64,000 nt of DNA from Anaerofilum hominis (GTDB lineage: Bacteria; Bacillota; Clostridia; Oscillospirales; Ruminococcaceae): contig NZ_JACONZ010000003.1 of assembly GCF_014287275.1 (NCBI RefSeq), positions 310,001 to 374,000 of the forward strand, written 5' to 3'. Of this stretch, positions 9,481-53,449 are shown in pieces. Both the position numbers and the translations under genes were made by a program. Below the pieces are notes generated by a model. It had not been told where the DNA came from. It was given only the letters and a program-made list of their open reading frames with translations, and did no database searches. The number at the start of each line of letters is the position of its first letter. Positions within the stretch are counted from its first letter, which is position 1.

Positions 9481-9590
9481 TTTATTGCAAAGCAATAAAA
9501 AATAGCCGCAGACTGCAGACTGTTTTTTGGCCGGTGCCCCGGTCGCCGCGTGAGCGGCGAGGGCATGGACATCAGGATAAAAAACAGGAA
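9481..9590. repeat. Dispersed hairpin repeat, copy 5
   Basis: Starts with TTATTGCAAAGCAATAA and an AATAGCCGCAGACTG stem, then GGCCGGTGCCCCGG with TCGCCGCGTGAGCGGCGAGGG. The right part is shared with the copy at 10278, including the GGATA..AAAA end. Confidence 0.7.
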
Positions 9591-9668
9591 TTGATTTGTT
9601 TCTGTCTGTGACAGCTGCGGCTGTTTTTGCCCGTTGGGAACGTCTCAAATCCTTGTCCAAACTGGAAA

Positions 9669-35862: not shown

Positions 35863-35903
35863 GCCCCAGCCATCGTTGAGGCCGGGGCGCTTCTGTTTTT
35901 TTG
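35863..35903 (+). terminator. Leader terminator between P1 and P2 of opuC
   Basis: GCCCC.GCC / GGC.GGGGC stem with an eight-base loop, then CTTCTGTTTTTTTG. Confidence 0.75.
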
Positions 35904-35933
35904 TACAAAAAAGCAGAAGAAAAAACATTTTTT

Positions 35934-35962
35934 TTGACCTCATTGCTCAGAGGTGCTATAAT
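35934..35962 (+). promoter_or_regulatory. Proximal promoter (P2) of opuCA
   Basis: TTGACC (35934-35939), 17-base spacer, TATAAT (35957-35962), 68 bases before the opuCA start. Confidence 0.8.
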
Positions 35963-36029
35963 AACAGGAAAAAAATGGATATTAAAAACAGGGCCCAGCG
36001 CCCTGCGGAACAGCGGGAGGCAGAAAAGG

Positions 36030-38388: not shown

Positions 38389-38453
38389 GGATGCCGGAGG
38401 CTTTGCAGACAACTTTGAAACGGGATCTTGACAAGAGAAAAGGAGGACACTAC

Positions 38454-39550: not shown

Positions 39551-39578
39551 TTGACAGAAAAGAAAAAAAGGGTATACT
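39551..39578 (+). promoter_or_regulatory. Promoter of the CocE-like hydrolase gene
   Basis: TTGACA (39551-39556), 16-base spacer, TATACT (39573-39578), in an AT-rich region that marks the left edge of the catabolic island. Confidence 0.75.
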
Positions 39579-39587
39579 TAATTTAAT

Positions 39588-39599
39588 CCTGTATTACAA
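39588..39599 (-). promoter_or_regulatory. Operator-like site 1 (GntR regulon candidate)
   Basis: Minus-strand TTGTAATACAGG, 10 bases after the -10 hexamer, so it covers the transcription start. Same word as at 41558 and 42741. Confidence 0.6.
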
Positions 39600-39697
39600 C
39601 ATGACAACAAACAAGCTATCCGCTGCGTATTCGTATCGACTCCGGGCGCGCACTTTAGCAGGTGCCCTCCCTGTATGTTAACTTAGGAGGTCATTTT

Positions 39698-41428
39698 ATG
39701 TCGGTTTGTAAGAATGAGATCATTTATCGCCGGGCTCCGGGACTTTCGGACCCGGGCTGCAGTTATCCCGGATTTGCCCCGGAATCAAAGGTGCTCAAAA
39801 AAGGGTCTGTCTGCCGCGCAGGGCATGCGCCGCTGGCCTGCGATATCCTGTTCGAACGGGACACGGCCATTACGGTACGTGACGGCACTATCTTATACGC
39901 GGATATTTATCGTCCGGTGGGAGAGGAAAAAGTTCCGGCGATTCTTAATTCCACTACTTTTGGAAAATCTACCGATGAGAAAAAGCCGGCTATGATCCAG
40001 CAGAAAGCGGCGTCCGGCGAACAATTTCCGGGCGTACCTAAAAGTATGACCTCAGGTCTGAATAGTTTTGAATCCACCGACCCGGGTTTTTTTGTTCCTC
40101 ATGGTTACGCGGTGGTAAATCTGGATATCCGCGGCAGTTACATGTCCGGCGGTGACAATCCCTATTTTGGTACGCAGGAAGCTGAGGATGATTACGACGT
40201 TATTGAATGGCTTGCCATGCAGGAGTGGTGCAGCGGCGCTGTCGCTATGACCGGTAATTCCTGGCTGGGCATCAATCAGTGGTTTGCAGCAGCCCAAAGG
40301 CCGCCGCATCTGGTTTGTATTGCCCCTTGGGAGGGCTGGTACGATATGTATCGCGATGAATATATGGTGGGCGGCATCCCGAATTATCCTGGTTTTCGCT
40401 TTAATAACGCCTATAGTGAGGGCGGAAAGATGGAGGATGTAGTGGCAAATTGCCTTGCCCATCCCCTGTTGGATGAGTACTGGAAAGATAAGGCGGCTCA
40501 TCCCGAGAAGATCGAGATCCCCGTTTATGCCACTGCTTCGTGGAGCAGCGTTGTGCATTGCCAGGGCACGCTGAATGCCTGGCGCAAGGTCCCCACAGAT
40601 CAAAAATGGCTGCGGGTCCACAATACCCAGGAGTGGAGGGATACTTACGACGAAAACAATTCTCAGGACCTGCTGCGCTTTTTCGACCATTATATGAAAA
40701 AAGAAGAAAATGGTTGGGAGAACACGCCCAAAGTACGCCTTTCGGTTCTGGACCCGGGTGGACAGGACATTGTCGAACGGCCGGAAAAGGAATTTCCACT
40801 GGAACGCCAGCGGCTGTGTGAGTTGTATCTGGATGCAGCTGCGGGCAAATTGTGCGAGACGCTGCCGGAGAAAGAGGCTGAGGCGCGATATTCCGGCTGG
40901 AATGGCAAAGATATGGTTAAATTCCGCTATACTTTCGACAAGGAGACAGAACTCGTCGGTTATAGCAGTGTGCGGTTGTATGTGGAATCGCACGGATACA
41001 ATGATCTGGACCTGTTCGTAAAATTGGAGAAGCTGGGTGCGGATGGCCGACGAGCCGAACATATCTCAGTGGCGACGGTACCTGATTTTGACCGCTATTC
41101 AGGTCCGACGGGCCGCCAGCGTGTGTCCCTGCGTAATCTGGATCCGGAAAAATCGGCACCGAATGAGCCTTATCACACATTTGACCAAGTGCAAAAGCTG
41201 CGCCCGCATGAGATAGTGCCGGTGGAAATAGGCCTGTTTCCCACCGGTCTGCGTTTTCACAAGGGGGAATCCATTGAACTTAAAATTGCCGGCTGGTGCT
41301 TTTACGATGTGCCGGGGGGATTTGGAAATCTGCTCCACATGGGCATCGATAATAATGGAGAACATGTGATCCACACCGGTGGGCAGTTTGCTTCAAAGGT
41401 CGTGCTGCCCATGATCCCGTTGGAATAA
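39698..41428 (+). CDS. CocE/NonD family hydrolase (peptidase S15-like)
   Basis: A 576-residue alpha/beta hydrolase. The catalytic part has ITVRDGTILYADIYRP, HGYAVVNLDIRGSYMSGG, and the nucleophile elbow GNSWLGI, in which Ser is the nucleophile. A C-terminal PepX_C jelly-roll domain (~350-576) contains YLDAAAGKLCE, FRYTFDKETELVGYSSVRLY and KGESIELKIAGW. The family includes cocaine esterase, X-Pro dipeptidyl peptidases and acylases; here an ester or amide of a plant or sugar compound is plausible. There is no signal peptide, so it acts inside the cell. The start is ATG 39698 with AGGAGG 7 bases upstream. Codon use is less GC-biased than in the flanks. It shares an operator-like site with the operon downstream. 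Confidence 0.88.
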   Translation: MSVCKNEIIYRRAPGLSDPGCSYPGFAPESKVLKKGSVCRAGHAPLACDILFERDTAITVRDGTILYADIYRPVGEEKVPAILNSTTFGKSTDEKKPAMIQQKAASGEQFPGVPKSMTSGLNSFESTDPGFFVPHGYAVVNLDIRGSYMSGGDNPYFGTQEAEDDYDVIEWLAMQEWCSGAVAMTGNSWLGINQWFAAAQRPPHLVCIAPWEGWYDMYRDEYMVGGIPNYPGFRFNNAYSEGGKMEDVVANCLAHPLLDEYWKDKAAHPEKIEIPVYATASWSSVVHCQGTLNAWRKVPTDQKWLRVHNTQEWRDTYDENNSQDLLRFFDHYMKKEENGWENTPKVRLSVLDPGGQDIVERPEKEFPLERQRLCELYLDAAAGKLCETLPEKEAEARYSGWNGKDMVKFRYTFDKETELVGYSSVRLYVESHGYNDLDLFVKLEKLGADGRRAEHISVATVPDFDRYSGPTGRQRVSLRNLDPEKSAPNEPYHTFDQVQKLRPHEIVPVEIGLFPTGLRFHKGESIELKIAGWCFYDVPGGFGNLLHMGIDNNGEHVIHTGGQFASKVVLPMIPLE

Positions 41429-41436
41429 GCCGATCC

Positions 41437-41483
41437 GGCAAAGTGACCGCAGGCCCTGCAGGGTCTGCGGCCATTTTGCCTTT
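41437..41483 (+). terminator. Terminator of the hydrolase gene
   Basis: GGCAAA.TG.CCGCAG / CTGCGG.CA.TTTGCC arms (imperfect) with inner palindrome CCCTGCAGGG, then CTTTTAATAAAAAA. Confidence 0.7.
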
Positions 41484-41515
41484 TAATAAAAAAGGAATTT
41501 TTTGGGTGTTTTATA

Positions 41516-41544
41516 TTGACAAATGTTTAACAATTGGATACAAT
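41516..41544 (+). promoter_or_regulatory. Promoter of the GntR regulator gene
   Basis: TTGACA (41516-41521), 17-base spacer, TACAAT (41539-41544). A 200-base leader follows. Confidence 0.8.
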
Positions 41545-41557
41545 TTTGCATGTATAC

Positions 41558-41568
41558 TTGTAATACAA
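41558..41568 (+). promoter_or_regulatory. Operator-like site 2 (GntR autoregulation candidate)
   Basis: TTGTAATACAA, a perfect odd palindrome (TTGTA-A-TACAA), 13 bases after the -10 hexamer. Confidence 0.6.
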
Positions 41569-41741
41569 TATTACAGTATGAAGACCATTTCTAATGGACA
41601 GACATCTCTTAATGCGTATAGAAGTAGTTTCTGAAATAAAACAAAAAATCGTTCTCCTGCTTTTCAGAGAAAGGAAAATCAAAATAACAATACCCAAACA
41701 AATTCATTCTGGTACAATAAAAAGTCGTGAGGAGAGAGTCC

Positions 41742-42449
41742 ATGAATTTATCCCCTGTAAAAAAAACAAGCATCAGCGATCAGGTGTTTGAGCAGCTGAA
41801 GACAAATCTAATTGATGGTACCTGGCGTCCGGGAGAGAAGATCCCCTCTGAAAACGATTTGGCCAGCGCTTTTGGAGTGAGCCGGGTAACGGCCCGGCAG
41901 GCGCTTTCCCGCCTGTCAACATTGGGGCTGATCGAGACGCGTCTGGGCGAGGGGTCCTTTGTGAGGGAGATCAAACCGGGAGATTTTCTGCAGGATATGA
42001 TCCCCAATGTGTATCTTAATTATGAGCTTAGCCACGACTCGATCCGGGAGGTGCTGGAGTTCCGTCTGCTTTACGAGGTAGAGGTCGCCGGGCTTGCGGC
42101 GCAGCGCATCAATGACGCCCAGATCCTTCAGTTGGAGCAAAGCTATGAAAAAATGAAAAAGTTCGCTTTACAAAGCCTTGAAAATTACACAGAAGAGGAT
42201 CTCAGCTTTCATTCTATGCTGGCGCAGGCTACCGGAAATTCGTTGGTCATCCAACTGAGCGGGATCATGAACGACCTGCTGCGGGTAACCATCAATAAGC
42301 TCACCAGCAATATTGGTACCGACAACGGACTACACTATCACCACAAGCTTATCAGAGCCTGCCGCAGTCATGATCCGCAAGCAGCCAAGAGTGTGATGTT
42401 AGAGCATCTGCAGCAAACTTTATCGGATTTTCAAAAAACAGAAAATTGA
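41742..42449 (+). CDS. GntR family transcriptional regulator (FadR/FCD subfamily)
   Basis: A 235-residue regulator. Its winged helix is at residues ~8-75 (SISDQVFEQLKTNLIDGTWRPGEKIPSENDLA, FGVSRVTARQALSRLSTLGLIE). The all-helical FCD ligand domain follows (~95-230) with the metal-binding pattern: REVLEFRLLYEVEVAGLA, LSFHSMLAQATGN and the late HYHHKLIRACRSHD. FCD members usually sense small carboxylates or sugar acids and leave DNA when the ligand binds. The start ATG has GAGGAGAG upstream. It sits between the hydrolase gene and the long operon, and all three promoters carry the same short palindromic word, so it is the likely local repressor. Confidence 0.92.
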   Translation: MNLSPVKKTSISDQVFEQLKTNLIDGTWRPGEKIPSENDLASAFGVSRVTARQALSRLSTLGLIETRLGEGSFVREIKPGDFLQDMIPNVYLNYELSHDSIREVLEFRLLYEVEVAGLAAQRINDAQILQLEQSYEKMKKFALQSLENYTEEDLSFHSMLAQATGNSLVIQLSGIMNDLLRVTINKLTSNIGTDNGLHYHHKLIRACRSHDPQAAKSVMLEHLQQTLSDFQKTEN

Positions 42450-42481
42450 GTACACCGCAAGGTGGCCCATATTAAAAAAAT

Positions 42482-42517
42482 AAAAGGCAGCTGTTTTACA
42501 GCTGCCTTTTATTTTTG
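42482..42517 (+). terminator. Terminator of the GntR regulator gene
   Basis: AAAAGGCAGCTGT / ACAGCTGCCTTTT with a short loop, then ATTTTTG. Confidence 0.9.
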
Positions 42518-42686
42518 CCGGGCCTTTCTATCCGCATAATTAAGTTTTTTGAAAAAAGAAAAGTGTAACAAAAGATCCTTAACAGCTTAAAAAAACTTTC
42601 AGGCCGGACTGGGTAAAAAAACAAATTTGTGAGATTACGCTAAAAATATTCAATAAATATCTTGTATTTTAACCATAAAATATAGA

Positions 42687-42715
42687 TTGACAGTCCAACA
42701 ACTTGAATGTATACT
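42687..42715 (+). promoter_or_regulatory. Promoter of the dehydrogenase-transketolase-transporter operon
   Basis: TTGACA (42687-42692), 17-base spacer, TATACT (42710-42715). Confidence 0.85.
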
Positions 42716-42740
42716 AGTCACATAGCAAGATAGCTGGTAG

Positions 42741-42752
42741 TTGTCATACAGG
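42741..42752 (+). promoter_or_regulatory. Operator-like site 3 (GntR regulon candidate)
   Basis: TTGTCATACAGG, one base different from site 1, located 25 bases after the -10 hexamer where it could block early elongation. Confidence 0.6.
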
Positions 42753-42795
42753 ATAAAACAAGAGAAATGAGTCCGCTAAAGGAGTTGTTGGATCA

Positions 42796-43824
42796 ATGAG
42801 AGCGCTCAGATATCTGGGGCCAGAGAAACTGGAGGTACAGCAGGTAGTGACCCCTGTGCCAGGGCAAGACGAGGTATTGCTGCGGGTACGTGCCTGCGGT
42901 ATCTGCGGCAGCGATGTGCATGGCTTTTTGGGCCTTACAGGGCGCCGTATTCCTCCGGTGACCATGGGCCATGAGTTCTGCGCCGAGGTCGTTCAGTGCG
43001 GGAAAAACGCAAAGAAGTTTAAAGAGGGTGAATTGGTTATCGCGCAGCCGATCCACTTTTGCGGCAGCTGTGTCAACTGCAGACAGGGACTGACCATGCT
43101 TTGCCTCAACAAAAAATTTTTCGGCGTGTTGGACACTGATGGCGCTATGGCAGAATACATCGCGGTGCCGGAGAAGCTTCTCTATCCGCTGCCGGCCGGC
43201 TGCAGCCCGGAGGTGGGAGCACTGGCGGAGCCATATGCGGTGGCTTATGGCGCGGTCAAAAAAGCGGGCGATCTAACCGGAAAAGACGTGCTGATCATCG
43301 GGGCAGGCACTATAGGGATCTGCATTCTGCAGCTGGTAAAACTGCAGGGGCCTAAAAAGATCATTGTCTCCGACCTGAGCGATACTCGATTGGAACGGGC
43401 CAAGCTCCTGGGAGCGGACGGGATAGTCAATCCAGGGAAAGAGAATGATCTGGAGGCGATCAGAACGCTGACCGGCGGCAGTATGGTCGATCTCTCTATC
43501 GAGGCCGTAGGAGTGCAGGCTACGGCAAATCAATCTATCAAGGCCCTGAAGGTCGGGGGAACGACGGTCTGGGTCGGCATGTCCCAGCGTGAAATGACGA
43601 TCGATATGCAGGACATCGTCTGCTCTGCACGGTCGGTGTTGGGATCTTTCAATTATACCCATCAGGATTTCGGCGAGGTAGTGCAGCTGTTGGGCAGCGG
43701 CCGGATGGAATCGGGTCGTCTGATCTCTCGAGTAGTCTCATTAGAAGAAGCTCCCCAGGCATTTCGCGATCTGCACGACCGGCCTGACGAGCTGCTCAAA
43801 ATCTTGATCGACCCAACCAGGTGA
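42796..43824 (+). CDS. Zinc-dependent medium-chain dehydrogenase (sorbitol/threonine dehydrogenase type)
   Basis: A 342-residue MDR enzyme that oxidises a secondary alcohol of a polyol or sugar acid with NAD(P). The catalytic zinc ligands lie in ACGICGSDVHG (Cys) and TMGHEFCAEV (His, Glu), the structural zinc uses the four Cys of CGSCVNCRQGLTMLC, and the Rossmann turn is VLIIGAGTIGICILQL with acidic SDLSDTR after it, which favours NAD. The start ATG follows AAAGGAG, about 10 bases away. It is the first gene of the operon and so probably catalyses the entry or an early oxidation of the imported compound. The exact substrate cannot be read from the sequence. Confidence 0.9.
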   Translation: MRALRYLGPEKLEVQQVVTPVPGQDEVLLRVRACGICGSDVHGFLGLTGRRIPPVTMGHEFCAEVVQCGKNAKKFKEGELVIAQPIHFCGSCVNCRQGLTMLCLNKKFFGVLDTDGAMAEYIAVPEKLLYPLPAGCSPEVGALAEPYAVAYGAVKKAGDLTGKDVLIIGAGTIGICILQLVKLQGPKKIIVSDLSDTRLERAKLLGADGIVNPGKENDLEAIRTLTGGSMVDLSIEAVGVQATANQSIKALKVGGTTVWVGMSQREMTIDMQDIVCSARSVLGSFNYTHQDFGEVVQLLGSGRMESGRLISRVVSLEEAPQAFRDLHDRPDELLKILIDPTR

Positions 43825-43834
43825 GGTGACGCGG

Positions 43835-44638
43835 ATGAAATACGGATGCTGTCTGAATATGGTAGCCGGAGGTCCTGACGGAACCGGCATGGAACATATC
43901 GCGGCGCTGGCGGCTGCCGGATACGACTATGTCGAACTGCCGCTGGCCGAGATCATGGCACTCGACGAAACACAGTTTACCGCGCTGTATCAGGCGCTGC
44001 AAAATGCGAATATTCCCTGTGAGGCCTGTAATAACTTTTTTCCGAAAACGCTGAGGCTGACCGGCACGCAGGCAGACTCTATAGAACAGACAATGGAATA
44101 TGTAGAGCGCGCATTGGCCAGAGCAGCAACCTTGGGAGCGCGAAAAGTGGTATTTGGCAGCGGCGGAGCAAAAAATGTGCCCGCAGGCTTTCCCATTGAG
44201 GAAGGCTGGCGGCAAGTGACGGAATTGACCAGGCGTATCGGCCCGGTTGCGCGGCAAAACGGCATCCTCATCGTCATCGAGCCGCTGCGAAAGGCCGAGT
44301 GCAATCTGATTAATTCTTTTGCAGAGGGCTGCCGGTTGGCCGACGATGTGGACGACTCAAATGTAAAGGTGCTGGTGGATTATTATCACCTGACCGAGGA
44401 AAAGGAGTCTGTAAAGCACGTTGAACAATTGGGACCGCATTATCTGGGACATATCCATTTTGCCAATCCGAAAGGCCGGGTTTATCCCTCGGCGCAAGAT
44501 GGCTGGGACTATTCGGATTTTGTAAAAGCGATCAAGGCGGCCGGATACAGCGATACCTTGAGCTGCGAAGCTTATACTTCAGAATATCCCAGGGCGGCGC
44601 GGGAGGCATTGGAATTTTTTAAGGCGAATTTTGACTGA
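43835..44638 (+). CDS. Sugar (phosphate) isomerase/epimerase, TIM-barrel (DTE/Hyi-like)
   Basis: A 267-residue AP-endonuclease-2-fold protein. Metal and catalytic residues expected in ketose 3-epimerases and hydroxypyruvate isomerases are present: Glu in LIVIEPLRKAECN, Asp and His in VLVDYYHL, His in LGHIHFANPKGR, and Glu in TLSCEAYTSEYP. It would move a carbonyl or invert a hydroxyl next to it on a free sugar. The start is ATG 43835, with GAGGTG 6 bases upstream; a GTG three codons earlier overlaps that site. It begins 10 bases after the dehydrogenase gene, so the ketose produced there is a natural substrate. Confidence 0.86.
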   Translation: MKYGCCLNMVAGGPDGTGMEHIAALAAAGYDYVELPLAEIMALDETQFTALYQALQNANIPCEACNNFFPKTLRLTGTQADSIEQTMEYVERALARAATLGARKVVFGSGGAKNVPAGFPIEEGWRQVTELTRRIGPVARQNGILIVIEPLRKAECNLINSFAEGCRLADDVDDSNVKVLVDYYHLTEEKESVKHVEQLGPHYLGHIHFANPKGRVYPSAQDGWDYSDFVKAIKAAGYSDTLSCEAYTSEYPRAAREALEFFKANFD

Positions 44639-44744
44639 GCCGGCAAACGTTGGCAATGCCAACTGCCGGGGCGGAATAAACACCGAAAAATACGTCTGTT
44701 TTGGGAGTCGGTGAAATGGTTCGGAACAGAAAGGGGTACTTAGA

Positions 44745-45569
44745 ATGAAATACAGCGCACAGGAAATCGCAAGGCTCGAAGAAAAAGCGCGCGCGATCCG
44801 TCGCGGGACCCTTGAGTGCATGGGGATCGGGGTCGCCGGGCATGTGGGAGGCTCCTGTTCCAGTGCGGACATTATCGCCGCACTCTACTTCCACAAGATG
44901 AAATATGATCCTCAGAATCCGCAAGACCCGGACAGGGACCGATTTTTGCTCAGTAAAGGGCATGTAGCCATTGCGCAATATGCCGCGCTGGCCGAGGCAG
45001 GGATCATCCCCCGCGAGTGGCTGAAGACCACTAAGCAGCTTGGCTCACGCCTGCAGGGCCATCCGGACCGCCTCAAGACGCCGGGCGTAGAGGCGGGGAC
45101 CGGGTCACTGGGGCAGGGCCTGTCCATCGGCTTGGGTATGGCGTTAGGGCAGAAGCTGGCCGGGATCGCCCGTAAGACCTATGTGCTTTTGGGAGACGGT
45201 GAGATCGCAGAAGGACAGGTGTGGGAGGCCGCATTGGCCGCGCCGATTCTGGGGGCGGACAACTTGGTGGCCATTGTAGATAATAACAGACTGCAGGCCA
45301 CTGATTTTATTAAGAAGCGGTTCAACACTTTGCCGTTAGCTCCGAAATTTCAGGGCTTTGGTTGGCATGTGATCGAAATCGATGGCCATGACATGGAGGA
45401 GATCCTTTCGGCGCTGGACGCCGTGGACGAAATAAAAGGAGTGCCTACTGTCATCATTGCGCACACGGTCAAAGGTAAGGGCGTGAGCTTTGCCGAAAAC
45501 GTTGCGGCTTATCACAACGGCGCGCTGAACGCAGAACAATATGAGCAGGCCATGACAGAACTGGCCTGA
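44745..45569 (+). CDS. Transketolase, N-terminal subunit
   Basis: The 274-residue thiamine-diphosphate-binding half of a split transketolase. It shows GHVGGSCSSADIIAALYF, DRFLLSKGHVAIAQYA with the His that touches the cofactor, GTGSLGQGLSIGLGMALG, and the ThDP motif GDGEIAEGQVWEAAL ... VDNNRLQ (GDG-X-NN). Such half-genes pair with a separate C-terminal half, here the next gene. In bacteria split transketolases are frequent in special sugar pathways next to the housekeeping enzyme. The 106 bases before it contain no promoter I can identify. Confidence 0.94.
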   Translation: MKYSAQEIARLEEKARAIRRGTLECMGIGVAGHVGGSCSSADIIAALYFHKMKYDPQNPQDPDRDRFLLSKGHVAIAQYAALAEAGIIPREWLKTTKQLGSRLQGHPDRLKTPGVEAGTGSLGQGLSIGLGMALGQKLAGIARKTYVLLGDGEIAEGQVWEAALAAPILGADNLVAIVDNNRLQATDFIKKRFNTLPLAPKFQGFGWHVIEIDGHDMEEILSALDAVDEIKGVPTVIIAHTVKGKGVSFAENVAAYHNGALNAEQYEQAMTELA

Positions 45570-45662
45570 GGAGAAAAAAGCCCACGGGCACAGGGACAGG
45601 GGAGCGACGCGCTCGCCCGGAAACTTCCGGCTTGGGCTGACAGCGAAAGGAAGGTTACAGGC

Positions 45663-46598
45663 ATGAGCTATACCAACCAGAGAAAGGCGTACGGTGAGAC
45701 CCTGACCGCGCTGGGCGCGGAAAATCCAAAGATTGTTGCCCTGGAAGCAGATCTGGGCAATTCGACCATGTCGCGCCTGTTCCAGCAGGCATACCCGGAA
45801 CGCTATTTTGAGATGGGCATCGCCGAGGCGAATATGACCTCGGTGGCCGCGGGACTTGCCCAGACCGGGTTCATCCCGGTGACGCATTCCTTTGCGGTTT
45901 TCTCCGGCGGACGCGCTTTTGACCAGTTGCGCCAGACCATTGCGATTGGCAAGCTGAACGTCAAGGTTTGTGGTTCATCGGCCGGCTGTTCGGACTTCGG
46001 CGACGGCGCCACACATCAATCGGTGGAAGATATCGCCATCATGCGGGCAATTCCTAATATGACGGTGCTCTGCCCGGCAGACGCCAACGAAACGGTGGGA
46101 GCCGTGCGGGCGATGATCGAACTGGAAGGCCCCTGCTATATCCGTATCAACCGCAATGATTACAGCAATGTGACAGAGGAGCATGCTCCGTTTAAGATCG
46201 GGGTCCCCACTGTACTGAGGGAAGGCAGGGACGTGACGATTTTTGCCATCGGTTATATGACGACTTTGGCTCTGGAAGCCGCCGAGGCGCTGAAAGACGA
46301 GCTTTCGGTCCGAGTGGTCAATGTAAGCACCCTTAAGCCGGTGCGGGAAGAGACGCTTGCAGCCCTTGCAAAGGGCTGCCGAGGCGTGGTCACCGCTGAG
46401 GAGCACAGTGTAGTTGGCGGTCTTGGCAGCATTGTTTGTCAGGCGCTGCGGGGCAGCGGCCTGCCGGTGGAGCTGGTGGGCATCGAAGATGTTTTTGGAT
46501 GCAGCGCCCACAGCTATGACGAAATTTTAGGTCATCTTGGGCTCACGCAAGAGCACATTCAGGAGGCGGCCCGCAGAGCTGCGAAAGCCGCAAGATGA
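45663..46598 (+). CDS. Transketolase, C-terminal subunit
   Basis: The 311-residue pyrimidine-binding half plus C-terminal domain. Key parts are IVALEADLGNSTMS, the activating Glu in FEMGIAEANMTSVAAGLA, VTHSFAVFSGGRAFDQLR, DFGDGATHQSVEDIAIMRA and YIRINRNDY, and the C-terminal VVTAEEHSVVGGLGS. Together with the preceding gene it forms one active site at the heterodimer interface and transfers a two-carbon ketol unit. GAAAGGAAGG lies before the start. Substrate specificity cannot be told; the absence of a sugar kinase in the cluster suggests a non-phosphorylated donor. Confidence 0.94.
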   Translation: MSYTNQRKAYGETLTALGAENPKIVALEADLGNSTMSRLFQQAYPERYFEMGIAEANMTSVAAGLAQTGFIPVTHSFAVFSGGRAFDQLRQTIAIGKLNVKVCGSSAGCSDFGDGATHQSVEDIAIMRAIPNMTVLCPADANETVGAVRAMIELEGPCYIRINRNDYSNVTEEHAPFKIGVPTVLREGRDVTIFAIGYMTTLALEAAEALKDELSVRVVNVSTLKPVREETLAALAKGCRGVVTAEEHSVVGGLGSIVCQALRGSGLPVELVGIEDVFGCSAHSYDEILGHLGLTQEHIQEAARRAAKAAR

Positions 46599-46638
46599 AA
46601 AATACGCGGTTCCCTTTATAAATAAGGAGGTCTTTCAC

Positions 46639-47526
46639 GTGAAGATTGGATTTATCGGGCTGGGCATCATGGGCAGGCCCATGGCAAAAAATTTGTTGAA
46701 AGCGGGACATGAACTGGTAGTTTACGACGTTGTACGAACCAATGTGGAAACGCTCACTGCGGCAGGGGCAACGGCAGCCGATTCTTCCCGTGAGGTAGCG
46801 CAGCAATGCAGGGTCATCATCACCATGCTGCCCAACTCCCCTCACGTAAAAGCTGCGGTGTTGGGTGAGAACGGTGTGCTGGAAGGCGCGCAGCAGGGAA
46901 CGATCCTAGTGGACATGAGTTCTATCGCACCGCTTGCGTCCCAAGAGATTTGTGAGGCCTGCGCGCAAAAAGGGGTGCGGATGATCGACGCACCGGTCAG
47001 CGGAGGCGAGCCGAAAGCGGTCGACGGGACCATTGCCATCATGGTAGGCGGAGACCGGGCCGTTTATGAGGAAGTAAAAGATCTGTTGCTGGTCATGGGA
47101 TCTAGCGCTGTTTGGTGCGGTGGTATCGGTGCTGGCAACACCACCAAATTGGCAAATCAGGTCATTGTGGCGCTCAATATTGCAGCAGTGTCCGAAGCGT
47201 ATCTGCTGGCGAAAAAAGCCGGCGTTGATCCACGCTTGGTTTTTGAGGCTATTCGGGGTGGTCTTGCGGGCTCTACAGTGATGGAGGCAAAGACCCCAAT
47301 GATCTTGTCGCGCGATTTTAAGCCCGGTTTTCGCATCGATCTGCATATCAAAGACCTGGCCAATGCTTTGGAAACCGGTCATTCGGTAGGAGCGCCGCTG
47401 CCGCTGACCGCCTCGGTTATGGAAATGCTGCAGACCCTGCACGCAGACGGCTGCGGTTCAGACGATCACAGCGGCATCGCAAAATATTACGAGAAAGTAG
47501 CGGGCGCGCAGATCGCAGAACCTTGA
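46639..47526 (+). CDS. Beta-hydroxyacid dehydrogenase (GarR / 3-hydroxyisobutyrate dehydrogenase family)
   Basis: A 295-residue NAD(P)-dependent reductase. It has the Rossmann start IGFIGLGIMGRPMAKNLLKAG, the family signatures VDMSSIAPLASQEI and DAPVSGGEPKAVDGTIAIMVGG, and the catalytic Lys in GAGNTTKLANQVIVALN. GarR reduces tartronate semialdehyde to glycerate; relatives reduce succinic semialdehyde, sulfolactaldehyde and similar short aldehydes. The start is GTG 46639, with AAGGAGG 7 bases upstream. It ends the enzymatic part of the operon and would dispose of a short aldehyde released by the transketolase. Glycerate, if made, could go to the glycerate kinase at 53450. Confidence 0.9.
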   Translation: MKIGFIGLGIMGRPMAKNLLKAGHELVVYDVVRTNVETLTAAGATAADSSREVAQQCRVIITMLPNSPHVKAAVLGENGVLEGAQQGTILVDMSSIAPLASQEICEACAQKGVRMIDAPVSGGEPKAVDGTIAIMVGGDRAVYEEVKDLLLVMGSSAVWCGGIGAGNTTKLANQVIVALNIAAVSEAYLLAKKAGVDPRLVFEAIRGGLAGSTVMEAKTPMILSRDFKPGFRIDLHIKDLANALETGHSVGAPLPLTASVMEMLQTLHADGCGSDDHSGIAKYYEKVAGAQIAEP

Positions 47527-47733
47527 TCCCCGCACCCTCGTGCAAGACACAGGAAGCACCCAGCACTTTTTATGTGCCGACGGCACTGCCGCCGGAAAGA
47601 TGAGTCACTTTTATCGCGGGGCGGCAGGGAGGTGGGAATAGTACCGGTGCACCGTTACTTCCGATAAGCCGGTATAGGCCACGGACCCCACATTCCGCGA
47701 TAAGAAAAATAAGAGCAGGAAAGGAACAAGAAA

Positions 47734-48696
47734 ATGAAAAAGTTATTTGCGATTCTCACAGCACTTGTCCTGGCAACTTCTCTAGCCGCCTGTGGCGGCA
47801 GCGACTCCTCCATTTCTACAGAGGGACAGTCCTCCAGTGCAGGTACGACAGTCGGTGCCTCCCATAAGATTGGCTTTGCCTGTGACGATCTGAGCACCGA
47901 TTTTGCAGCCGCAATGGCTGATGGAGTCAAAAACAAATGCGCCGAACTGGGCATCGAGGTGGAGATCACGGATGCCAACAAGGACCCCAATAACCAGACC
48001 AGCCAGGTGGAGAATATGATCACCAACGGCTGTGAAGCGATTATCATGTCCCCTTATGATTTGTCGGCCTGCGGTGCTCTGGCCACTGCCTGCGAAGAGG
48101 CGGGAATACCGCTGATCGTGCTGAATACACCGCTGAATGACGGGACCTATTTTTCTACAGCAGTCGTCATGGACATTGAGGCGATGGCCACTGCAAAGGC
48201 GAACGCTATCGTAGAGGCTCTGGACGGAGAAGGACGGGTCTACATGTTGATGGGCCCTCTGGCACAAGAGATGTGGACCACCCAGGCTGACATCGCGCGG
48301 AAAATTTTTGCAGAGCATCCGGGTATTGAGATCATCGATGAACAGACCGGCAACAACAAGCGGGACGAGAGCATCGTGGTCATGGAAAACTGGATCTCCA
48401 CAGGCGCAGAATTCGACGCCGTGTGGTGCTCTAACGACGCCTCGGCTATCGGGGCGGGCACGGCCTGTAAAGAGGCTGGACTGGATGCTTTCATTATTGG
48501 TCAGGGCGGACAGGCTGAGGGATGCCAAGCGATTAAAGACGGACTGTTTGACTGGACCATTTATGCCCCTGGTTCCCTGATCGGTTCCTCAGGTGTAGAG
48601 GCTGCTTATAAGTTGCTGAGCGGCGAAGAAGTGGGAAAGACTTATTCGCTTAAACTGGAATATGTCACCCCGGAGAACGTGGACGAATACCTCTGA
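47734..48696 (+). CDS. Sugar ABC transporter substrate-binding lipoprotein (RbsB-like)
   Basis: A 320-residue lipoprotein: signal peptide ending SLAAC (Cys20), a Ser/Gly linker, then a Peripla_BP_4 fold. HKIGFACDDLSTDFAAAMADGVK begins the first lobe, QVENMITNGCEAIIMSPYD and IVLNTPLND follow, and AVWCSNDASAIGAGTACKEA and IIGQGGQAEGCQAIKDG belong to the second lobe. The binding pocket is of the ribose/allose group but its residues do not reveal the sugar. A strong hairpin after the gene may keep its mRNA level above that of the ATPase and permease. The start has AGGAAAGGAAC upstream. Confidence 0.92.
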   Translation: MKKLFAILTALVLATSLAACGGSDSSISTEGQSSSAGTTVGASHKIGFACDDLSTDFAAAMADGVKNKCAELGIEVEITDANKDPNNQTSQVENMITNGCEAIIMSPYDLSACGALATACEEAGIPLIVLNTPLNDGTYFSTAVVMDIEAMATAKANAIVEALDGEGRVYMLMGPLAQEMWTTQADIARKIFAEHPGIEIIDEQTGNNKRDESIVVMENWISTGAEFDAVWCSNDASAIGAGTACKEAGLDAFIIGQGGQAEGCQAIKDGLFDWTIYAPGSLIGSSGVEAAYKLLSGEEVGKTYSLKLEYVTPENVDEYL

Positions 48697-48727
48697 TTTC
48701 ATCGGGCGTCTTTGCCCTCGCGGGGAG

Positions 48728-48760
48728 ATCGGGCAGGCCGCTGTGAACGGCCTGCCCGAT
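48728..48760 (+). promoter_or_regulatory. Intra-operon stem-loop after the binding-protein gene
   Basis: ATCGGGCAGGCCG / CGGCCTGCCCGAT, 13-bp perfect stem with a seven-base loop and no U-tract. Probably stabilises the upstream mRNA rather than terminating. Confidence 0.7.
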
Positions 48761-48829
48761 TGACAAATAACGGCCGGAGGGAAGCGCTCCGCGCCCTCTC
48801 TCTACAGTGCCGACGAAAGGCGAAAAATT

Positions 48830-50332
48830 ATGGAGAAAAACGATATATTGCTGCAGGTCAGCGGAGTGTCAAAATCGTTTCCCGGCGTCAGGGCCCTGGA
48901 CGGGATGAATCTGAGCGTCCGTCGGGGGACCGTCCACGCGCTGATGGGAGAAAACGGAGCAGGAAAATCCACTCTGATGAAGATTCTCACGGGCCTTTAC
49001 CAAAGAGACAGCGGCGAGATCACCTTGGACGGCGTGCCGCTGGAAACGCATACTATCTCCGCCGTGATTGCGCAGGGTATCTCAATGATTTATCAGGAGC
49101 TCAACCCCATTGAAGGGATGACAGTGGCGGAGAATATTTTTTGCGGCAAAGAGCCCTGCCGGGTCAAGCTGTTCTACGTAGACCGCGCGGCGATGAACAG
49201 GCAAGCCGCCGCACTGCTGGAAAAACTGGGAGTGATAGGCATTTCACCTACCGCGAAGCTGCATACATTGAGCAACGCCCAAAAGCAGCTGGTAGAGATT
49301 GCAAAGGCTATTTCCAATGATTCGAAGCTTATCATCATGGATGAGCCCACCTCCGCAATTACAGAAAGTGAGTGCCAGAGGCTGTTTGAGACCATCAAAC
49401 GACTTCAGGCAAGCGGGATGACCTTCATTTACATTACCCATAAGATGGACGAGATCTTCAGTATCTGTGATGAGGTCACAGTGATGCGAGATGGGAAATA
49501 TGTGGATACACGACCTGTAAGCGAGGTGACTCACGACAGCCTGGTGGCAATGATGGTGGGAAGAGCGATCACCAATGTGTATCCTAAACAGAAAGCCCAG
49601 ATCGGTGAGACGGTGCTGGAGGTGCGGGAGTTATGCGCGGGAAAGTCGTTTCATAACGTTAGTTTTGAATTGAAAAAGGGAGAGATTTTGGGTTTTGCCG
49701 GGCTGATGGGGGCGGGGCGTACTGAAATCGCCGAGGCGCTATTCGGTACCCGCCCCATCACCGGCGGCGAGGTGTTCGTCGAGGGCAAAAAGGCACGTAT
49801 TGGCACCCCGCGCGATGCCATCCGCCTTCGAATGGCAATGCTCACGGAAGACAGGCGCCTTACCGGCTGTTTGATCAATTCAAAAGTATATGATAACATC
49901 CTTACCCTGATGTGGAAAAGGCTTCGAGGCCCCCTTGGGATTGACCACAGAAAAGGGAAACAGATCTGCAACGAGCAGATCGGGCGCTTTTCGATCAAGA
50001 CTACCGGCCCGGATCAAAGGATGCGCAATCTTTCGGGTGGAAATCAGCAAAAGGTGCTGCTGGCGCGCTGGCTGCTGACGGAGCCTGATATCCTCATCCT
50101 GGATGAACCGACCCGTGGTATTGACGTGGGAGCAAAATATGAGATCTATCAAGACATGGTGCGCCTGGCTCAACAGGGTAAGTCTATTATCATGATCTCC
50201 TCGGAGCTTCCGGAGGTCTTGGGCATGAGCGACCGCATTCTTGTGATGCACGAGGGGGAGCAAATGAAGATCCTGGATGCTGCACAGGCCGACCAGGAAA
50301 CCATTATGCGGTATGCCTCCGGCATTGCGTAG
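48830..50332 (+). CDS. Sugar ABC transporter ATP-binding protein (RbsA/MglA-like, duplicated ABC)
   Basis: A 500-residue ATPase with two ABC modules. The first has Walker A GENGAGKSTLMKIL, the RbsA-typical LSNAQKQLVEIAKAIS in place of the canonical signature, and Walker B LIIMDEPTSAI. The second has the degenerate P-loop GFAGLMGAGRTEIAEAL, signature LSGGNQQKVLLARWL, and ILILDEPTRGIDVGAKYEIY. This asymmetry is normal for ribose-type importers. The start is ATG 48830, weakly supported by an AAAGG 14 bases upstream. It energises the permease encoded 17 bases downstream. Confidence 0.94.
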   Translation: MEKNDILLQVSGVSKSFPGVRALDGMNLSVRRGTVHALMGENGAGKSTLMKILTGLYQRDSGEITLDGVPLETHTISAVIAQGISMIYQELNPIEGMTVAENIFCGKEPCRVKLFYVDRAAMNRQAAALLEKLGVIGISPTAKLHTLSNAQKQLVEIAKAISNDSKLIIMDEPTSAITESECQRLFETIKRLQASGMTFIYITHKMDEIFSICDEVTVMRDGKYVDTRPVSEVTHDSLVAMMVGRAITNVYPKQKAQIGETVLEVRELCAGKSFHNVSFELKKGEILGFAGLMGAGRTEIAEALFGTRPITGGEVFVEGKKARIGTPRDAIRLRMAMLTEDRRLTGCLINSKVYDNILTLMWKRLRGPLGIDHRKGKQICNEQIGRFSIKTTGPDQRMRNLSGGNQQKVLLARWLLTEPDILILDEPTRGIDVGAKYEIYQDMVRLAQQGKSIIMISSELPEVLGMSDRILVMHEGEQMKILDAAQADQETIMRYASGIA

Positions 50333-50349
50333 TCAAAGGAAGGATAACA

Positions 50350-51333
50350 ATGGAAAAGACAAAAAAGAACAAAAGCAGTATGTCTCTGGGTGAGAGATTT
50401 CTGCGGCTTCTAACTGACGAGCAGACCGGCGCCGCGATCATCCTTGCCGTCGTAGTCCTCATCCTGGCCCTCACAGCGGACAACTTTTTATCCACACGCA
50501 ATCTGACCAATCTACTGCGCTATGCATCCTTTTATGTGATGGTGGGCGTCGGAGTATTGGTGATCTTCCGCAGCGGTGCTATGGATCTGTCGTTAGGCGC
50601 AACGATGGGCATGTCCGGCATCCTGGCGGCCATGCTGGCGCAGCGCGGAATGCCGCTCTGGCTTATTCTTATTGAGACGCTGGTGGTGGGAGCCCTTATT
50701 GGCGCGTTCAACGGCTACCTGGTAGGATACTGGGGCTTCCCCGCCTTTATCGCCACATTGGGCAGCAAGCAGGTGGTGCGGGGCCTGATTACTGTGATCA
50801 CCGGCGGTTATCCGGTCAATGGACTCTCGGAGGAGTTTACTTTTCTCGGCGCGGGAAGTTTTCTGGGGATTCCGGTCCCCATTTATGTGGCCCTTGCAAT
50901 GATGGGCATCACTGCCTATGTGCTCAATAAGACGGTGTTCGGCCGGCATGTCTGTGCCACCGGCGGCAATACCCAGGCAGCATTGGTTTCTGGCATCAAC
51001 ACTCGGCGCATCCAGATGCTGGCATATGTCTACGGCGGTTGCTGCGCCGCTATTGCGGGCACGGTCCTCACTGCCCGCATCACTTCGGGCCAGGTCAATA
51101 CCGGCGACGGCTTCGAGTTGGACGCCATCGCGGGCGCCATCATCGGCGGTGCCGCCATGGACGGAAGCGGCGGTACCGTAACTGGTGTGCTCTGCGGCAT
51201 TCTGGTCATCTATGCGGTCAAAAATGGCATGACTCTACTGGCGGTCAACGCTTATTGGCAGCAGGTCGTACAAGGCGCGATCATCATCATCGCCATTTTC
51301 CTGGATATTATCCGCAAAAAACAGCGCAAGTGA
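50350..51333 (+). CDS. Sugar ABC transporter permease (RbsC-like)
   Basis: A 327-residue BPD_transp_2 permease with about eight to ten membrane helices. Diagnostic segments are NLLRYASFYVMVGVGVLVIFRSGAMDLSLGATMGMSG, GAFNGYLVGYWGFPAFIATLGSKQVVRG, YAYGG-type VYGGCCAAIAGTVLTARI, and GFELDAIAGAIIGGAAMDGSGGTVTG. One such gene would form the homodimeric channel. AAAGGAAGG precedes the start. It completes a three-gene transporter encoded together with the enzymes expected to use the sugar. Confidence 0.94.
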   Translation: MEKTKKNKSSMSLGERFLRLLTDEQTGAAIILAVVVLILALTADNFLSTRNLTNLLRYASFYVMVGVGVLVIFRSGAMDLSLGATMGMSGILAAMLAQRGMPLWLILIETLVVGALIGAFNGYLVGYWGFPAFIATLGSKQVVRGLITVITGGYPVNGLSEEFTFLGAGSFLGIPVPIYVALAMMGITAYVLNKTVFGRHVCATGGNTQAALVSGINTRRIQMLAYVYGGCCAAIAGTVLTARITSGQVNTGDGFELDAIAGAIIGGAAMDGSGGTVTGVLCGILVIYAVKNGMTLLAVNAYWQQVVQGAIIIIAIFLDIIRKKQRK

Positions 51334-51345
51334 GAGGAGCGGCTT

Positions 51346-51630
51346 ATGCAGATCGAATACGGACTGCTTCCAGAAGAACCGGGGATGGAAGAATCTTACA
51401 CGATCATTCCAGAGGATCTCAAAATGAATCCCAACTGCCCTTGCCCCACTCGAACCTGTCCAAACCACGGGTTTTGCCAGTACTGTGTACCGCATCATGA
51501 AAAAATTAGCCGCCGGCTGGCAGAGATGGGGCAACCCGGCCGTGCAGACCCGCCTTTCTGCCATCGGAAAGAATATCTCGAAACAAAGCGGGCAGCAGGT
51601 GCGGTGAAAAAGGGGAGGGGTGCGGAATGA
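51346..51630 (+). CDS. Small cysteine-rich protein (DUF6485-like)
   Basis: A 94-residue soluble protein with the motif CPCPTRTCPNHGFCQYCVPHH and a later PFCHRKEYLE. Seven Cys and several His in a 45-residue span suggest a zinc or metal site. The pattern resembles the small DUF6485 proteins (CxC-x4-C-x4-GxCxxCxxYH) of Clostridia, but the assignment is an inference from layout only. The start has AGAGGAGCGG upstream. Its last 4 bases overlap the start of the DUF6273 gene, so the two are probably made together. Its position behind a sugar transporter is unusual; no function can be assigned. Confidence 0.65.
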   Translation: MQIEYGLLPEEPGMEESYTIIPEDLKMNPNCPCPTRTCPNHGFCQYCVPHHEKISRRLAEMGQPGRADPPFCHRKEYLETKRAAGAVKKGRGAE

Positions 51631-52475
51631 AGTTGGGTGATCTTCCCATTGGGGCACGGGTATGTGACCAGGGTGGAGAAGCCGCCTTTCTCGTTGCAGC
51701 GCAGAACCATCCGGGCTACGCGGGGACGACCCTGCTGGCGGAAAAAGTGTTGGGAGTGCGCTGCCTTGACGCGGCGGAGCCGCAGCGCCGGCAGGTCTCT
51801 ATTTTTGAACGGGTATGGCAGTTTGGCAGCAACGACTATGCGACCAGCAACCTGCACCAGTGGCTGAACAGTCAAGAGACGGACTGGTTTCACCCCCAGC
51901 ATGAAGAGGACTGTCCGCCCAGCACCCCGTATCTGCGCTACGGTGAACAGCCCTATGACGGATTGCCCGGATACCTTAGCGGTTTTTCAAAAACCTTTTT
52001 GGCACAGATGCTGGTGAGCCAAGTGCCGGTACTGCGGCGCACCGAGCAGGGCAAAGCGGAATTGACATGGGTAAAAGCCCGGGTCTTTTTGCCCAGCCGC
52101 ACGGAGCTGAACAAAGGAGACGAGTGTGGAGTGGCCGAAGGAAAGCCGCTGCCGCTGCTCTGGGATCAACGTATCTTTAAGGCGGTGCCGCAGGAGAGCG
52201 AGCTGAAAAAGCACGGGCGCTCGTGGAACCCCGGCCGCGCTACAGCCCCTGAGGACGCCCCTCAGATCTATGATCCCCGATATGGCTGGTGGTATTGGAT
52301 GCGCACACCGAGCAGTTTGTATGCTTTTCTCACCCGGGTGGCCAGCCCTTATGGGGCGGTCAGTTATACTTATGCCAACAATGATGTAGTGGGAGTGCGG
52401 CCGCTGATGAATCTGGATGCCGGGACGCAGGTGGAGGGAGACGGACAGATCGACGAGACTTATACTATCGTCTGA
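51627..52475 (+). CDS. DUF6273 domain protein
   Basis: A 282-residue protein. The pattern FGSNDYATSNLHQWLNS near residue 65, FLAQMLVSQVPVLRRTEQG and VFLPSRTELNKGDECGVAEG in the middle, and WWYWMRTPSSLYAFLTRVASPYG, VVGVRPLMNLDAG at the end is that of the DUF6273 family, which occurs in clostridial surface and phage-like contexts and has no known activity. No signal peptide is seen, so it should be cytoplasmic. It starts in a 4-base overlap with the Cys-rich gene. Its role in the catabolic operon is unknown. Confidence 0.78.
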   Translation: MKLGDLPIGARVCDQGGEAAFLVAAQNHPGYAGTTLLAEKVLGVRCLDAAEPQRRQVSIFERVWQFGSNDYATSNLHQWLNSQETDWFHPQHEEDCPPSTPYLRYGEQPYDGLPGYLSGFSKTFLAQMLVSQVPVLRRTEQGKAELTWVKARVFLPSRTELNKGDECGVAEGKPLPLLWDQRIFKAVPQESELKKHGRSWNPGRATAPEDAPQIYDPRYGWWYWMRTPSSLYAFLTRVASPYGAVSYTYANNDVVGVRPLMNLDAGTQVEGDGQIDETYTIV

Positions 52476-52594
52476 CCGTAACACGCAGAACAAAAGGCGC
52501 AAAGGCTGGCAGCGGGGGTACATTCGGGCGGATATCTTTCGCCGGTGTACGGGCTGTCAGCCTTTTCTTGCATGGAGAGAGGGGAAAAGCTATA

Positions 52595-53242
52595 ATGAAA
52601 AAAACGACCCGGGCCTTTTGGTACTTGGCGGGACTGGCCCTGTTGGCACTGGGGAGCGCATTGAGCGTCAGGTCGGAGCTCGGGGTAACCGCGACTGCCA
52701 GCATCGGATATGTGCTGGCTGCGGCCAGCGGCTTATCTTTAGGGCTGATCACAATGCTTAATTTTATGTTTTTTATTGCGGTGCAGCTGTTGTTTACCTG
52801 TAAAAGCCGTCTGCGTATCCTGATGCAGCTGCCTTTCAGCGTCTTTTTTTCTGCTGTGCTTGACTTTTGCTTGGATATGCTGCGCTTTGAGGCGAACTCC
52901 CTGATCGCAAAATTTGCCCTGTTGGTGCTGGGGGTACTGTTGACTGCCGCGGGGGTGTTTTTAACGGTCAGTCCCGGTATCGTGCCAACTGCCCCCGACG
53001 GCTTTGTCGAAACTCTTGCAGGACGCTTTGGGTGGCGATTCGGCGTCGTTAAAAATATTTTTGATCTGGTCAGCGTGACGCTGGCGGCGGGGGTGGGTCT
53101 GCTGTGTGTCGGGAGCCCAAAGGGAATCGGCATAGGCACTCTGTTTTCTGCATTGCTGATTGGCCCGCTGGCCGGAGTGCTGATGAAACGTTTTGGAAAC
53201 AGTTTTGCCAAACCGCAGCAAACGTCTGCAAAGGCGGGGTAA
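52595..53242 (+). CDS. YczE-like membrane protein (DUF6198)
   Basis: A 215-residue protein with five predicted membrane helices (about residues 8-28, 38-66, 78-100, 108-132 and 150-178). The order of features (AFWYLAGLALLALGSALSVRSELGVTAT, SIGYVLAAASGLSLG, then GIGIGTLFSALLIGPLAGVLMKRF) matches the YczE/DUF6198 group. Distant similarity to YitT is known; transport or sensing is suspected. The start is ATG 52595 with AGAGGGG about 11 bases upstream. The gene is separated by 119 bases from the DUF6273 gene and may be transcribed with it. It marks the right end of the lower-GC island. Confidence 0.82.
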   Translation: MKKTTRAFWYLAGLALLALGSALSVRSELGVTATASIGYVLAAASGLSLGLITMLNFMFFIAVQLLFTCKSRLRILMQLPFSVFFSAVLDFCLDMLRFEANSLIAKFALLVLGVLLTAAGVFLTVSPGIVPTAPDGFVETLAGRFGWRFGVVKNIFDLVSVTLAAGVGLLCVGSPKGIGIGTLFSALLIGPLAGVLMKRFGNSFAKPQQTSAKAG

Positions 53243-53449
53243 AACAGCGTGCTTTGAAACTTTGAATAATTGAAGCGCTTTACTAAATCGGACAGCTTCG
53301 GCATCAAAAATATTCGGAACAGATAAACTGCGCTTGAACTGTTTGAAAGCTTCCCACCTCATTGACTTTCCCATTTTGAGACACACCCTGGGACGCCATA
53401 CAGTTGGACCGGAAATAAAATATGCTTTTATCCCAAAAGGAGAATGCCC

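Follow-up and report, generated by a model that had tools for sequence, protein, structure and literature searches.

We have analysed a 64,000-nucleotide stretch of the Anaerofilum hominis genome (contig NZ_JACONZ010000003.1, positions 310,001 to 374,000; hereafter the window) and describe in it an island of ten co-oriented genes on the + strand, at 39698-51333, which encodes a split transketolase with an altered phosphate-holding motif and, immediately 3' of it, a GarR-type reductase. With slightly more belief than doubt, we propose that the island serves a sugar-acid route under GntR/FCD control and without a sugar kinase, in which the substrate is most likely a five-carbon aldonate (pentonate) and the transketolase would release tartronate semialdehyde, to be reduced to D-glycerate. 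All the reactions of this route, its substrate and the chain length (C5 or C6) are what we infer from the genes and their relatives.

The motif that holds the substrate phosphate reads RSFHR in canonical transketolases and RAFDR in the enzyme acting on sulfofructose, according to the excerpt of PMC11659671 consulted. Its position on the window subunit was set by our own alignments, and there the C-terminal subunit (TKC) reads RSFSR, with Ser106 replacing the phosphate-binding His, so that it matches neither of the two. Serine occupies this position in all 18 rows of the cluster alignment, the window included, and in all 121 rows when the window protein is aligned with the 120 database proteins closest to it. 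The fold that binds thiamine diphosphate (ThDP) is kept: R7, R164 and H118 of TKC are invariant in 18/18 rows, and H33, H73, H106 and H257 of the N-terminal subunit (TKN) in 20/20, residues that we take to be the active-site histidines and both pocket arginines. The split transketolase recognized in an earlier, sequence-only reading of this DNA therefore stands, with an altered pocket.

Relatives were collected as 38 loci (L001-L038) from a profile scan of genome contigs with the epimerase alignment, and the sample was widened by transketolase searches (L095-L114). For the relation between motif and neighbouring gene, 77 of 115 sources were counted (the window, both sets of loci and 18 paralogue loci), leaving out repeat or shorter stretches of the same places, epimerase loci without a transketolase, and TKC matches of fewer than 120 residues. 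A GarR homologue of at least 45% identity lies 3' on the same strand at 31 of the 34 RSFSR loci (within 113 bases in 30, at 542 in one), against none of the 24 loci with other readable motifs under a 600-base limit; as most of these 24 come with no more than some 1.5 kb of flanking sequence, the zero covers the immediate 3' neighbour. The other motifs comprise three RSPSR, eight with H, four with Y, four with D, one with N, and four single-chain DXS-like proteins. L025, whose truncated gene makes the motif unreadable and which is without GarR, enters neither count; its transketolase probably belongs to the RSFSR class. The earlier reading had noted the GarR-like enzyme beside the transketolase and proposed a neighbourhood comparison of the pair, and these counts bear out the association.

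The window GarR scores 487 bits against the NCBIfam model of 2-hydroxy-3-oxopropionate reductase (cut-off 397), falls below the cut-off for L-threonate dehydrogenase, and matches 1vpd, which we take to be the Salmonella enzyme, with 424 bits over residues 1-292. The four GarR proteins scored (window, L006, L017 and L028, the last from a non-RSFSR locus) all exceed the tartronate-semialdehyde-reductase cut-off, and by sequence the enzyme scores as a tartronate semialdehyde reductase. Because the RSFSR class is coupled to a GarR of this kind, the product of its transketolase is most simply tartronate semialdehyde, and the donor would therefore be CH2OH-CO-CHOH-CHOH-COO-, a 4-keto-pentonate.

Other motif classes were met in the same genomes. 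In each of eight carrier genomes there are between 2 and 11 transketolase-like matches, and the paralogues whose motifs were read include H, Y, D and P-S types; Faecalicatena contorta (the L010 genome) has 11 C-subunit matches, and among the four motifs read there, three carry H and the fourth is RSFSR. A sister class, RSFYR, is found with a TTT carrier and a PdxA-family gene (BLAST labels) in L107:7263-13664 and L108:7058-14851, apparently another acid pathway; the L107 locus also holds a glycerate kinase and a non-adjacent GarR, an arrangement of GarR that recurs in L028 and L022. At L028:11710-12954, between GarR and a distant RSFDR transketolase, lies a nickel-pincer-dependent isomerase of group 22 (above the NCBIfam cut-off), possibly a 2-hydroxy-acid epimerase; the portions of PMC11770544 and PMC7583248 consulted give no substrate for this group.

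In the route that we propose, the window substrate would enter through the CUT2 importer, perhaps as a neutral lactone or ester, and the CocE-type hydrolase would open it to the free acid. The MDR enzyme, often replaced by an SDR in relatives, is a proposed aldonate dehydrogenase yielding a keto acid; either would be the penultimate-carbon dehydrogenase that the 4-keto-pentonate donor needs, turning the penultimate hydroxyl into the ketone of CH2OH-CO-CHOH-CHOH-COO-. The TIM barrel is proposed to invert the carbon adjoining the ketone where the configuration of the substrate is wrong, and the split transketolase would then pass CH2OH-CO on to an acceptor sugar phosphate such as glyceraldehyde 3-phosphate, which would become xylulose 5-phosphate, and release tartronate semialdehyde; the ketol transfer envisaged by the earlier reading is thus retained. 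GarR would reduce the semialdehyde to D-glycerate, which a glycerate kinase would convert to phosphoglycerate for entry into glycolysis. If both the dehydrogenase and GarR use NAD, the second would re-oxidise the NADH of the first, and the route would be redox-neutral without a sugar kinase. We advance more tentatively, leaning slightly to doubt, the wider claim that this is an undescribed, non-phosphorylative pentonate pathway of anaerobes, in which the RSFSR class is a new one and acts as a glycolaldehyde transferase on 4-keto-pentonates, with tartronate semialdehyde as the product left over, the route is redox-balanced, no ATP is spent before glycerate, the 3-epimerase is a stereochemical adapter, and swappable MDR or SDR enzymes and importers widen the range of acids.

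Close relatives of the epimerase were few: class- and order-wide searches with it returned matches with E < 1e-80 in 3/391, 1/392 and 3/394 genomes, the centre genome being counted each time. Eighteen of the 38 scan loci bear a transketolase (N-subunit of at least 45% identity), and these 18 include GarR in 15, MDR homologues in nine (61-71% identical), glycerate kinase in five, and an SDR in nine by cluster membership plus one (L021) from its gene list. Their carriers vary: CUT2 in six, TRAP in five, GntP in two, LIV-type in two, TTT in one, Opp-like in one, and none seen in one, where one representative each of TRAP, GntP, TTT and LIV was called by hidden Markov model (HMM) and the rest by BLAST cluster or size. 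On a tree of the joined subunits (17 of 19 candidates, L011 and L033 being left out), the carriers are scattered, CUT2 requiring five changes and TRAP four, at least three of each forced by strongly supported branches, and the carrier labels cluster no more than in shuffles. Close relatives, namely L002/L005 (both Flexilinea) and L113/L114, were counted separately. TRAP, GntP and TTT systems usually transport carboxylates; since the core stays constant while the importers change to these types, the common substrate of the family is probably an acid. The acid-aldehyde class of GarR, together with the glycerate kinase near 6/33 relatives, likewise makes a sugar acid the more likely substrate.

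That a free sugar or polyol is taken up, as suggested by the sequence-only reading, is accordingly not supported and probably untrue for the family; for the window alone, which has an inositol-like binding protein, a neutral substrate is conceivable. Its CUT2 system is distinct, the binding proteins of relatives being 24-28% identical to it. Because the window importer resembles inositol ones while the family points to an acid, our guess is that the substrate is taken up here as a neutral lactone or ester and opened by the hydrolase, an activity that may be common to the CocE and PF04199 hydrolases. A PF04199 hydrolase gene occurs in 6/9 CUT2 loci versus 0/12 TRAP, GntP or LIV loci (Fisher p 0.0015, post hoc; L011 and L030, both also with CUT2 genes, were excluded by hand from the CUT2 group, and L011 was counted as TRAP). 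The CocE hydrolase is tied to the island by a common operator and has no BLAST match among the open reading frames (ORFs) of the 38 scan loci.

For the TIM barrel, the predicted fold (model confidence 97) has matches led by ketose 3-epimerases such as D-tagatose/D-psicose 3-epimerase, and E152, D185, H211 and E248, presumably the metal ligands and catalytic residues of such enzymes, are invariant in 26 aligned sequences. Transketolases usually follow the 3S rule; if the present one keeps it, epimerisation would be required for the C3 configuration of D-xylonate or L-arabinonate (worked by hand), and absence of the epimerase from many loci is expected if only substrates of one C3 configuration need it. 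The enzyme is accessory, as it was not seen near 11/12 of the RSFSR loci found via the transketolase (L095-L105; some lie at contig ends). Transaldolase-like genes stand in loci without a transketolase, at L008:9328-10383 (PF00923) and, by resemblance, at L026:8657-9682 and L035:6705-7736, perhaps as an alternative to it.

The last step of the route would depend on glycerate kinase. The window copy, downstream of the island, scores 392 bits against TIGR00045 (cut-off 168), and this resident-looking enzyme could carry glycerate onward; given its third-position guanine-plus-cytosine (GC) content of 0.86 and the lack of an operator in front, we have dropped it as a certain member. Among relatives, glycerate kinase is near L006, L013, L015, L016, L022 (on the opposite strand) and L112 (by BLAST), and in L006 it lies directly 3' of GarR and is 62% identical to the window copy. 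The setting in some relatives is that of pentose use: L104 has an ArfA arabinofuranosidase, AraA and an FGGY kinase, L025 has AraA and an FGGY kinase, and GH43 genes accompany L095 and L113. The absence of a sugar kinase, stated by the earlier reading, holds within the core; its check for a linked sugar kinase in relatives finds none in their cores, but the L-arabinose isomerase and FGGY-family kinase flank L104 and L025, and FGGY-like kinases, judged from sequence reading, lie downstream in L011 and L019.

Several observations weigh against the pentonate route. Three of the 34 RSFSR loci (L022, L023 and L033) are without an adjacent GarR, and in L028 an RSFDR transketolase clusters with GarR and the epimerase, though GarR is not directly 3'. 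The window glycerate kinase is unlike the island in its base composition and operator, and linkage to this gene is limited to the 6/33 relatives listed above. The AraA, FGGY, GH43 and GH31 neighbours perhaps belong to unrelated operons, a galactonate dehydratase (above cut-off) that adjoins the L098 cluster and, on the opposite strand, that of L100 hints at a C6 acid, and a PdxA-family gene in L017 hints at C4 acids. Among NCBIfam models, the MDR scores best with IolM (242 versus 450 bits) and the epimerase with IolO (71 versus 300), in both cases far below the cut-off, and the named relatives of the window binding protein are inositol binders (32-36% identity), most of its matches being unnamed. 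Finally, the epimerase was not seen near 11/12 of the transketolase-found RSFSR loci, and the first sample contains it because those loci were collected by epimerase.

Some of these observations would be accounted for by six-carbon aldonates, a 5-keto-hexonate being cleaved to tartaric semialdehyde (C4) and reduced by the GarR-like enzyme to a tetronate. The galactonate dehydratase genes and the PdxA-family gene are consistent with such substrates, as are the SDR enzymes of relatives, nearest to KduD and gluconate 5-dehydrogenase among the specific models and below every cut-off, and the epimerase, whose best model, IolO, is a 5-keto-L-gluconate epimerase; moreover, the part of PMC11066805 consulted describes transketolase cleavage of 5-keto-D-gluconate as a proposed step of plant tartrate synthesis and as an activity reported with a mutant E. 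coli enzyme. We nevertheless regard this reading as unlikely, for GarR exceeds the tartronate-semialdehyde cut-off by a wide margin and does not reach that of L-threonate dehydrogenase, and glycerate kinase recurs as a neighbour, whereas no tetronate kinase was noticed in the gene lists read, no dedicated search being made. It is less likely still that a free sugar or polyol enters the cell, becomes a ketose by oxidation and is then epimerised and cleaved, with GarR reducing a short neutral aldehyde. The binding protein akin to inositol binders, the ketose-3-epimerase fold, the MDR dehydrogenase and the CUT2 carriers in 6/18 loci would all suit it; TRAP, GntP and TTT carriers stand beside the same core, however, GarR and glycerate kinase indicate acids, and a hydrolase gene tracks CUT2 carriers, as one would expect if an acid were taken up in a neutral, derivatised form.

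An inositol-like route, in which oxidation and hydrolysis of a cyclitol supply the epimerase and the transketolase with a 5-keto acid, would draw on the sub-threshold IolM and IolO models, the inositol-type binding protein and the presence of a hydrolase. The distance of both scores from their cut-offs, the acid carriers of relatives and the lack of an inositol dehydrogenase among the Pfam and NCBIfam matches of the island make it very improbable. GarR and glycerate kinase also occur in glyoxylate and hydroxypyruvate pathways, and the island might be thought to belong there, with the TIM barrel as a hydroxypyruvate isomerase acting on tartronate semialdehyde and hydroxypyruvate as the substrate of the transketolase. 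A weak match of the TIM barrel to hydroxypyruvate isomerase (51 bits, cut-off 353) agrees with this, but the fold matches are led by 3-epimerases, no glyoxylate carboligase appears among the Pfam and NCBIfam matches of the island, and the MDR and SDR enzymes would be left unexplained, so that we give this reading hardly any credence.

The ten island genes look, from their upstream regions, like one regulon. The regions 5' of the hydrolase and of gntR have a word in common, a variant of which lies 5' of the dehydrogenase; as TTGTNATACAR it has three sites in the 64 kb, all at island promoters, with 0.03 expected from shuffles, and each copy stands 10-25 bases past the -10 box of a promoter that is one of the three best matches (11/12) in the region. 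This palindromic candidate operator is thus present at the promoter of gntR itself and at both others, and it conforms to the TnGTnnnACnA-type consensus of GntR/FCD operators. The CUT2 importer has no such site in front of it within the window, and the scan listed no + strand promoter-like or terminator-like match in the gap between garR and the importer, which is therefore probably transcribed by read-through from the dehydrogenase promoter.

The word recurs in relatives. The 18 transketolase-bearing loci hold eight exact sites versus 0.8 expected, seven upstream of cluster genes and the eighth, in L005, upstream of a different gene; the 20 other scan loci hold three versus 1.0 expected, one before an SDR (L003) and one before an SDR-resembling ORF (L036); and among five exact sites in the 20 later loci, three precede SDR, GntP-like or MDR genes (L097, L098, L104) and two do not. 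Loci with the operator before cluster genes are L006, L010, L013, L015, L018, L033, L097, L098 and L104. In L006, one site precedes gntR, followed by the dehydrogenase, epimerase, transketolase, garR and glycerate kinase, and a second precedes the CUT2 operon. A GntR homologue (29-52% identity) is found in 16/18 transketolase-bearing scan loci. The control by GntR suggested by the sequence-only reading is supported by this shared candidate operator, in the island as in its relatives.

The coordinates of all these features are collected in the table. Domain matches and base composition agree with the earlier reading as to the genes and their families, their contiguity and common orientation, and the lower GC content. 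Measured in 2-kb segments, GC is 0.46-0.58 across 38-54 kb and 0.60-0.74 in most others, the exceptions being 0.595 at 4-6 kb, 0.40-0.58 around 7-12 kb (with a second low-GC pocket of 0.40 at 8001-10000), 0.57-0.58 at 16-19 kb and 0.535 at the end. Third-position GC is 0.56-0.69 in the ten island genes versus 0.84-0.87 in five measured neighbours (three OpuC-type genes, the glycerate kinase and the long ORF 55750-58821). As both values fall below those of the neighbours, the island looks like acquired DNA between resident genes. The range first assigned to it, 39551..53242, stands for the ten genes and is given up for the last two, DUF6273 (51627) and DUF6198 (52568), which were rejected as members and probably lie outside, since BLAST matched neither of them to any ORF at the 38 loci of relatives. 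An OpuC-type, glycine-betaine-like ABC operon with CBS domains (35901-39374) lies immediately 5' of the island, and a small Cys-rich ORF without a Pfam match (51346-51630, 94 aa, CPCPTRTCPNHGFCQYC) lies 3' of the permease.

Table. Features of the island and its borders, in window coordinates
Feature	Position	Strand	Basis
Hydrolase promoter, TTGACA-16-TATACT, 11/12	39551..39578	+	Promoter scan
Candidate operator TTGTAATACAG, 3' of hydrolase promoter	39589..39599	-	TTGTNATACAR match
CocE/NonD-family alpha/beta hydrolase	39698..41428	+	PF02129 and PF08530
gntR promoter, TTGACA-17-TACAAT, 11/12	41516..41544	+	Promoter scan
Candidate operator TTGTAATACAA, palindromic TTGT-NNN-ACAA	41558..41568	+	TTGTNATACAR match
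GntR/FCD transcription factor	41727..42449	+	Domain matches
Likely terminator 3' of gntR, inverted repeat and T-run	42486..42506	+	Sequence read; not listed by scan
Dehydrogenase-operon promoter, TTGACA-17-TATACT, 11/12	42687..42715	+	Promoter scan
Candidate operator TTGTCATACAG, dehydrogenase operon	42741..42751	+	TTGTNATACAR match
Zinc MDR dehydrogenase	42796..43824	+	Domain matches
AP_endonuc_2 TIM barrel, ketose-3-epimerase fold	43826..44638	+	Domain and fold match
Transketolase N-terminal (ThDP-binding) subunit, Transketolase_N	44745..45569	+	Split transketolase 6yak at 2.6e-79
Transketolase C-terminal subunit, Transket_pyr and Transketolase_C, motif RSFSR	45663..46598	+	Domains and alignments
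GarR-type, putative tartronate semialdehyde reductase	46639..47526	+	NCBIfam match; 1vpd match
CUT2 importer binding protein, inositol/polyol-like	47734..48696	+	Domain and similarity matches
CUT2 importer twin ATPase	48830..50332	+	Domain matches
CUT2 importer permease	50350..51333	+	Domain matches
Glycerate kinase, just outside 39551..53242	53444..54580	+	440 bits to PF02595

We found no description of the pathway in the open-licence papers searched (most subscription journals lay outside this scope), and the route looks undescribed so far. If it is as proposed, sugar acids would join the few known substrates of dedicated split transketolases, anaerobes would be able to use pentonates without a sugar kinase or a dehydratase, and the serine in place of histidine would provide a one-residue marker with which to annotate 'transketolase' pairs in Clostridia. 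Applied to the 2-11 transketolase-like matches of each carrier genome, such motif reading could reveal more pathways.

Parts of the proposed route have counterparts in known systems. GarR and glycerate kinase act in the glucarate and glyoxylate pathways, where the semialdehyde comes from an aldolase or a carboligase; these pathways correspond to the lower half of the present route, in which the source of the semialdehyde would be a transketolase. The Thermotoga inositol route employs IolM and IolO, members of the same MDR and 3-epimerase families as the island enzymes, which act beside the ketone of a keto acid; the island proteins score far below both cut-offs, and we know of no transketolase step in that route. 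Closer to the ketol transfer itself is the 5-keto-D-gluconate step of plant tartrate synthesis, in which transfer from a keto-aldonate likewise leaves an acid aldehyde; unlike the island, that step is putative, leads from C6 to C4, and is linked to no named bacterial operon in the part of PMC11066805 consulted. The AptAB system for D-apiose resembles the island in placing a two-subunit transketolase in a sugar-specific cluster; that cluster includes the kinase aplK, as described in the excerpt of PMC13001218 consulted, whereas the island has no kinase before glycerate. With regard to the sulfo-transketolase SqwGH, the island enzyme is not a member, because motif (RSFSR instead of RAFDR) and linked genes differ: the island has a dehydrogenase, an epimerase and a tartronate-semialdehyde-type reductase, and its Pfam and NCBIfam matches include no sulfoquinovose isomerase or other sulfosugar gene. 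What the two would have in common is the chemistry, since SqwGH, present in Clostridia including Faecalicatena, is also a split enzyme, uses an unphosphorylated, anionic ketose as C2 donor and glyceraldehyde 3-phosphate as acceptor, and leaves an aldehyde that can be reduced, as far as the excerpt of PMC11659671 relates.

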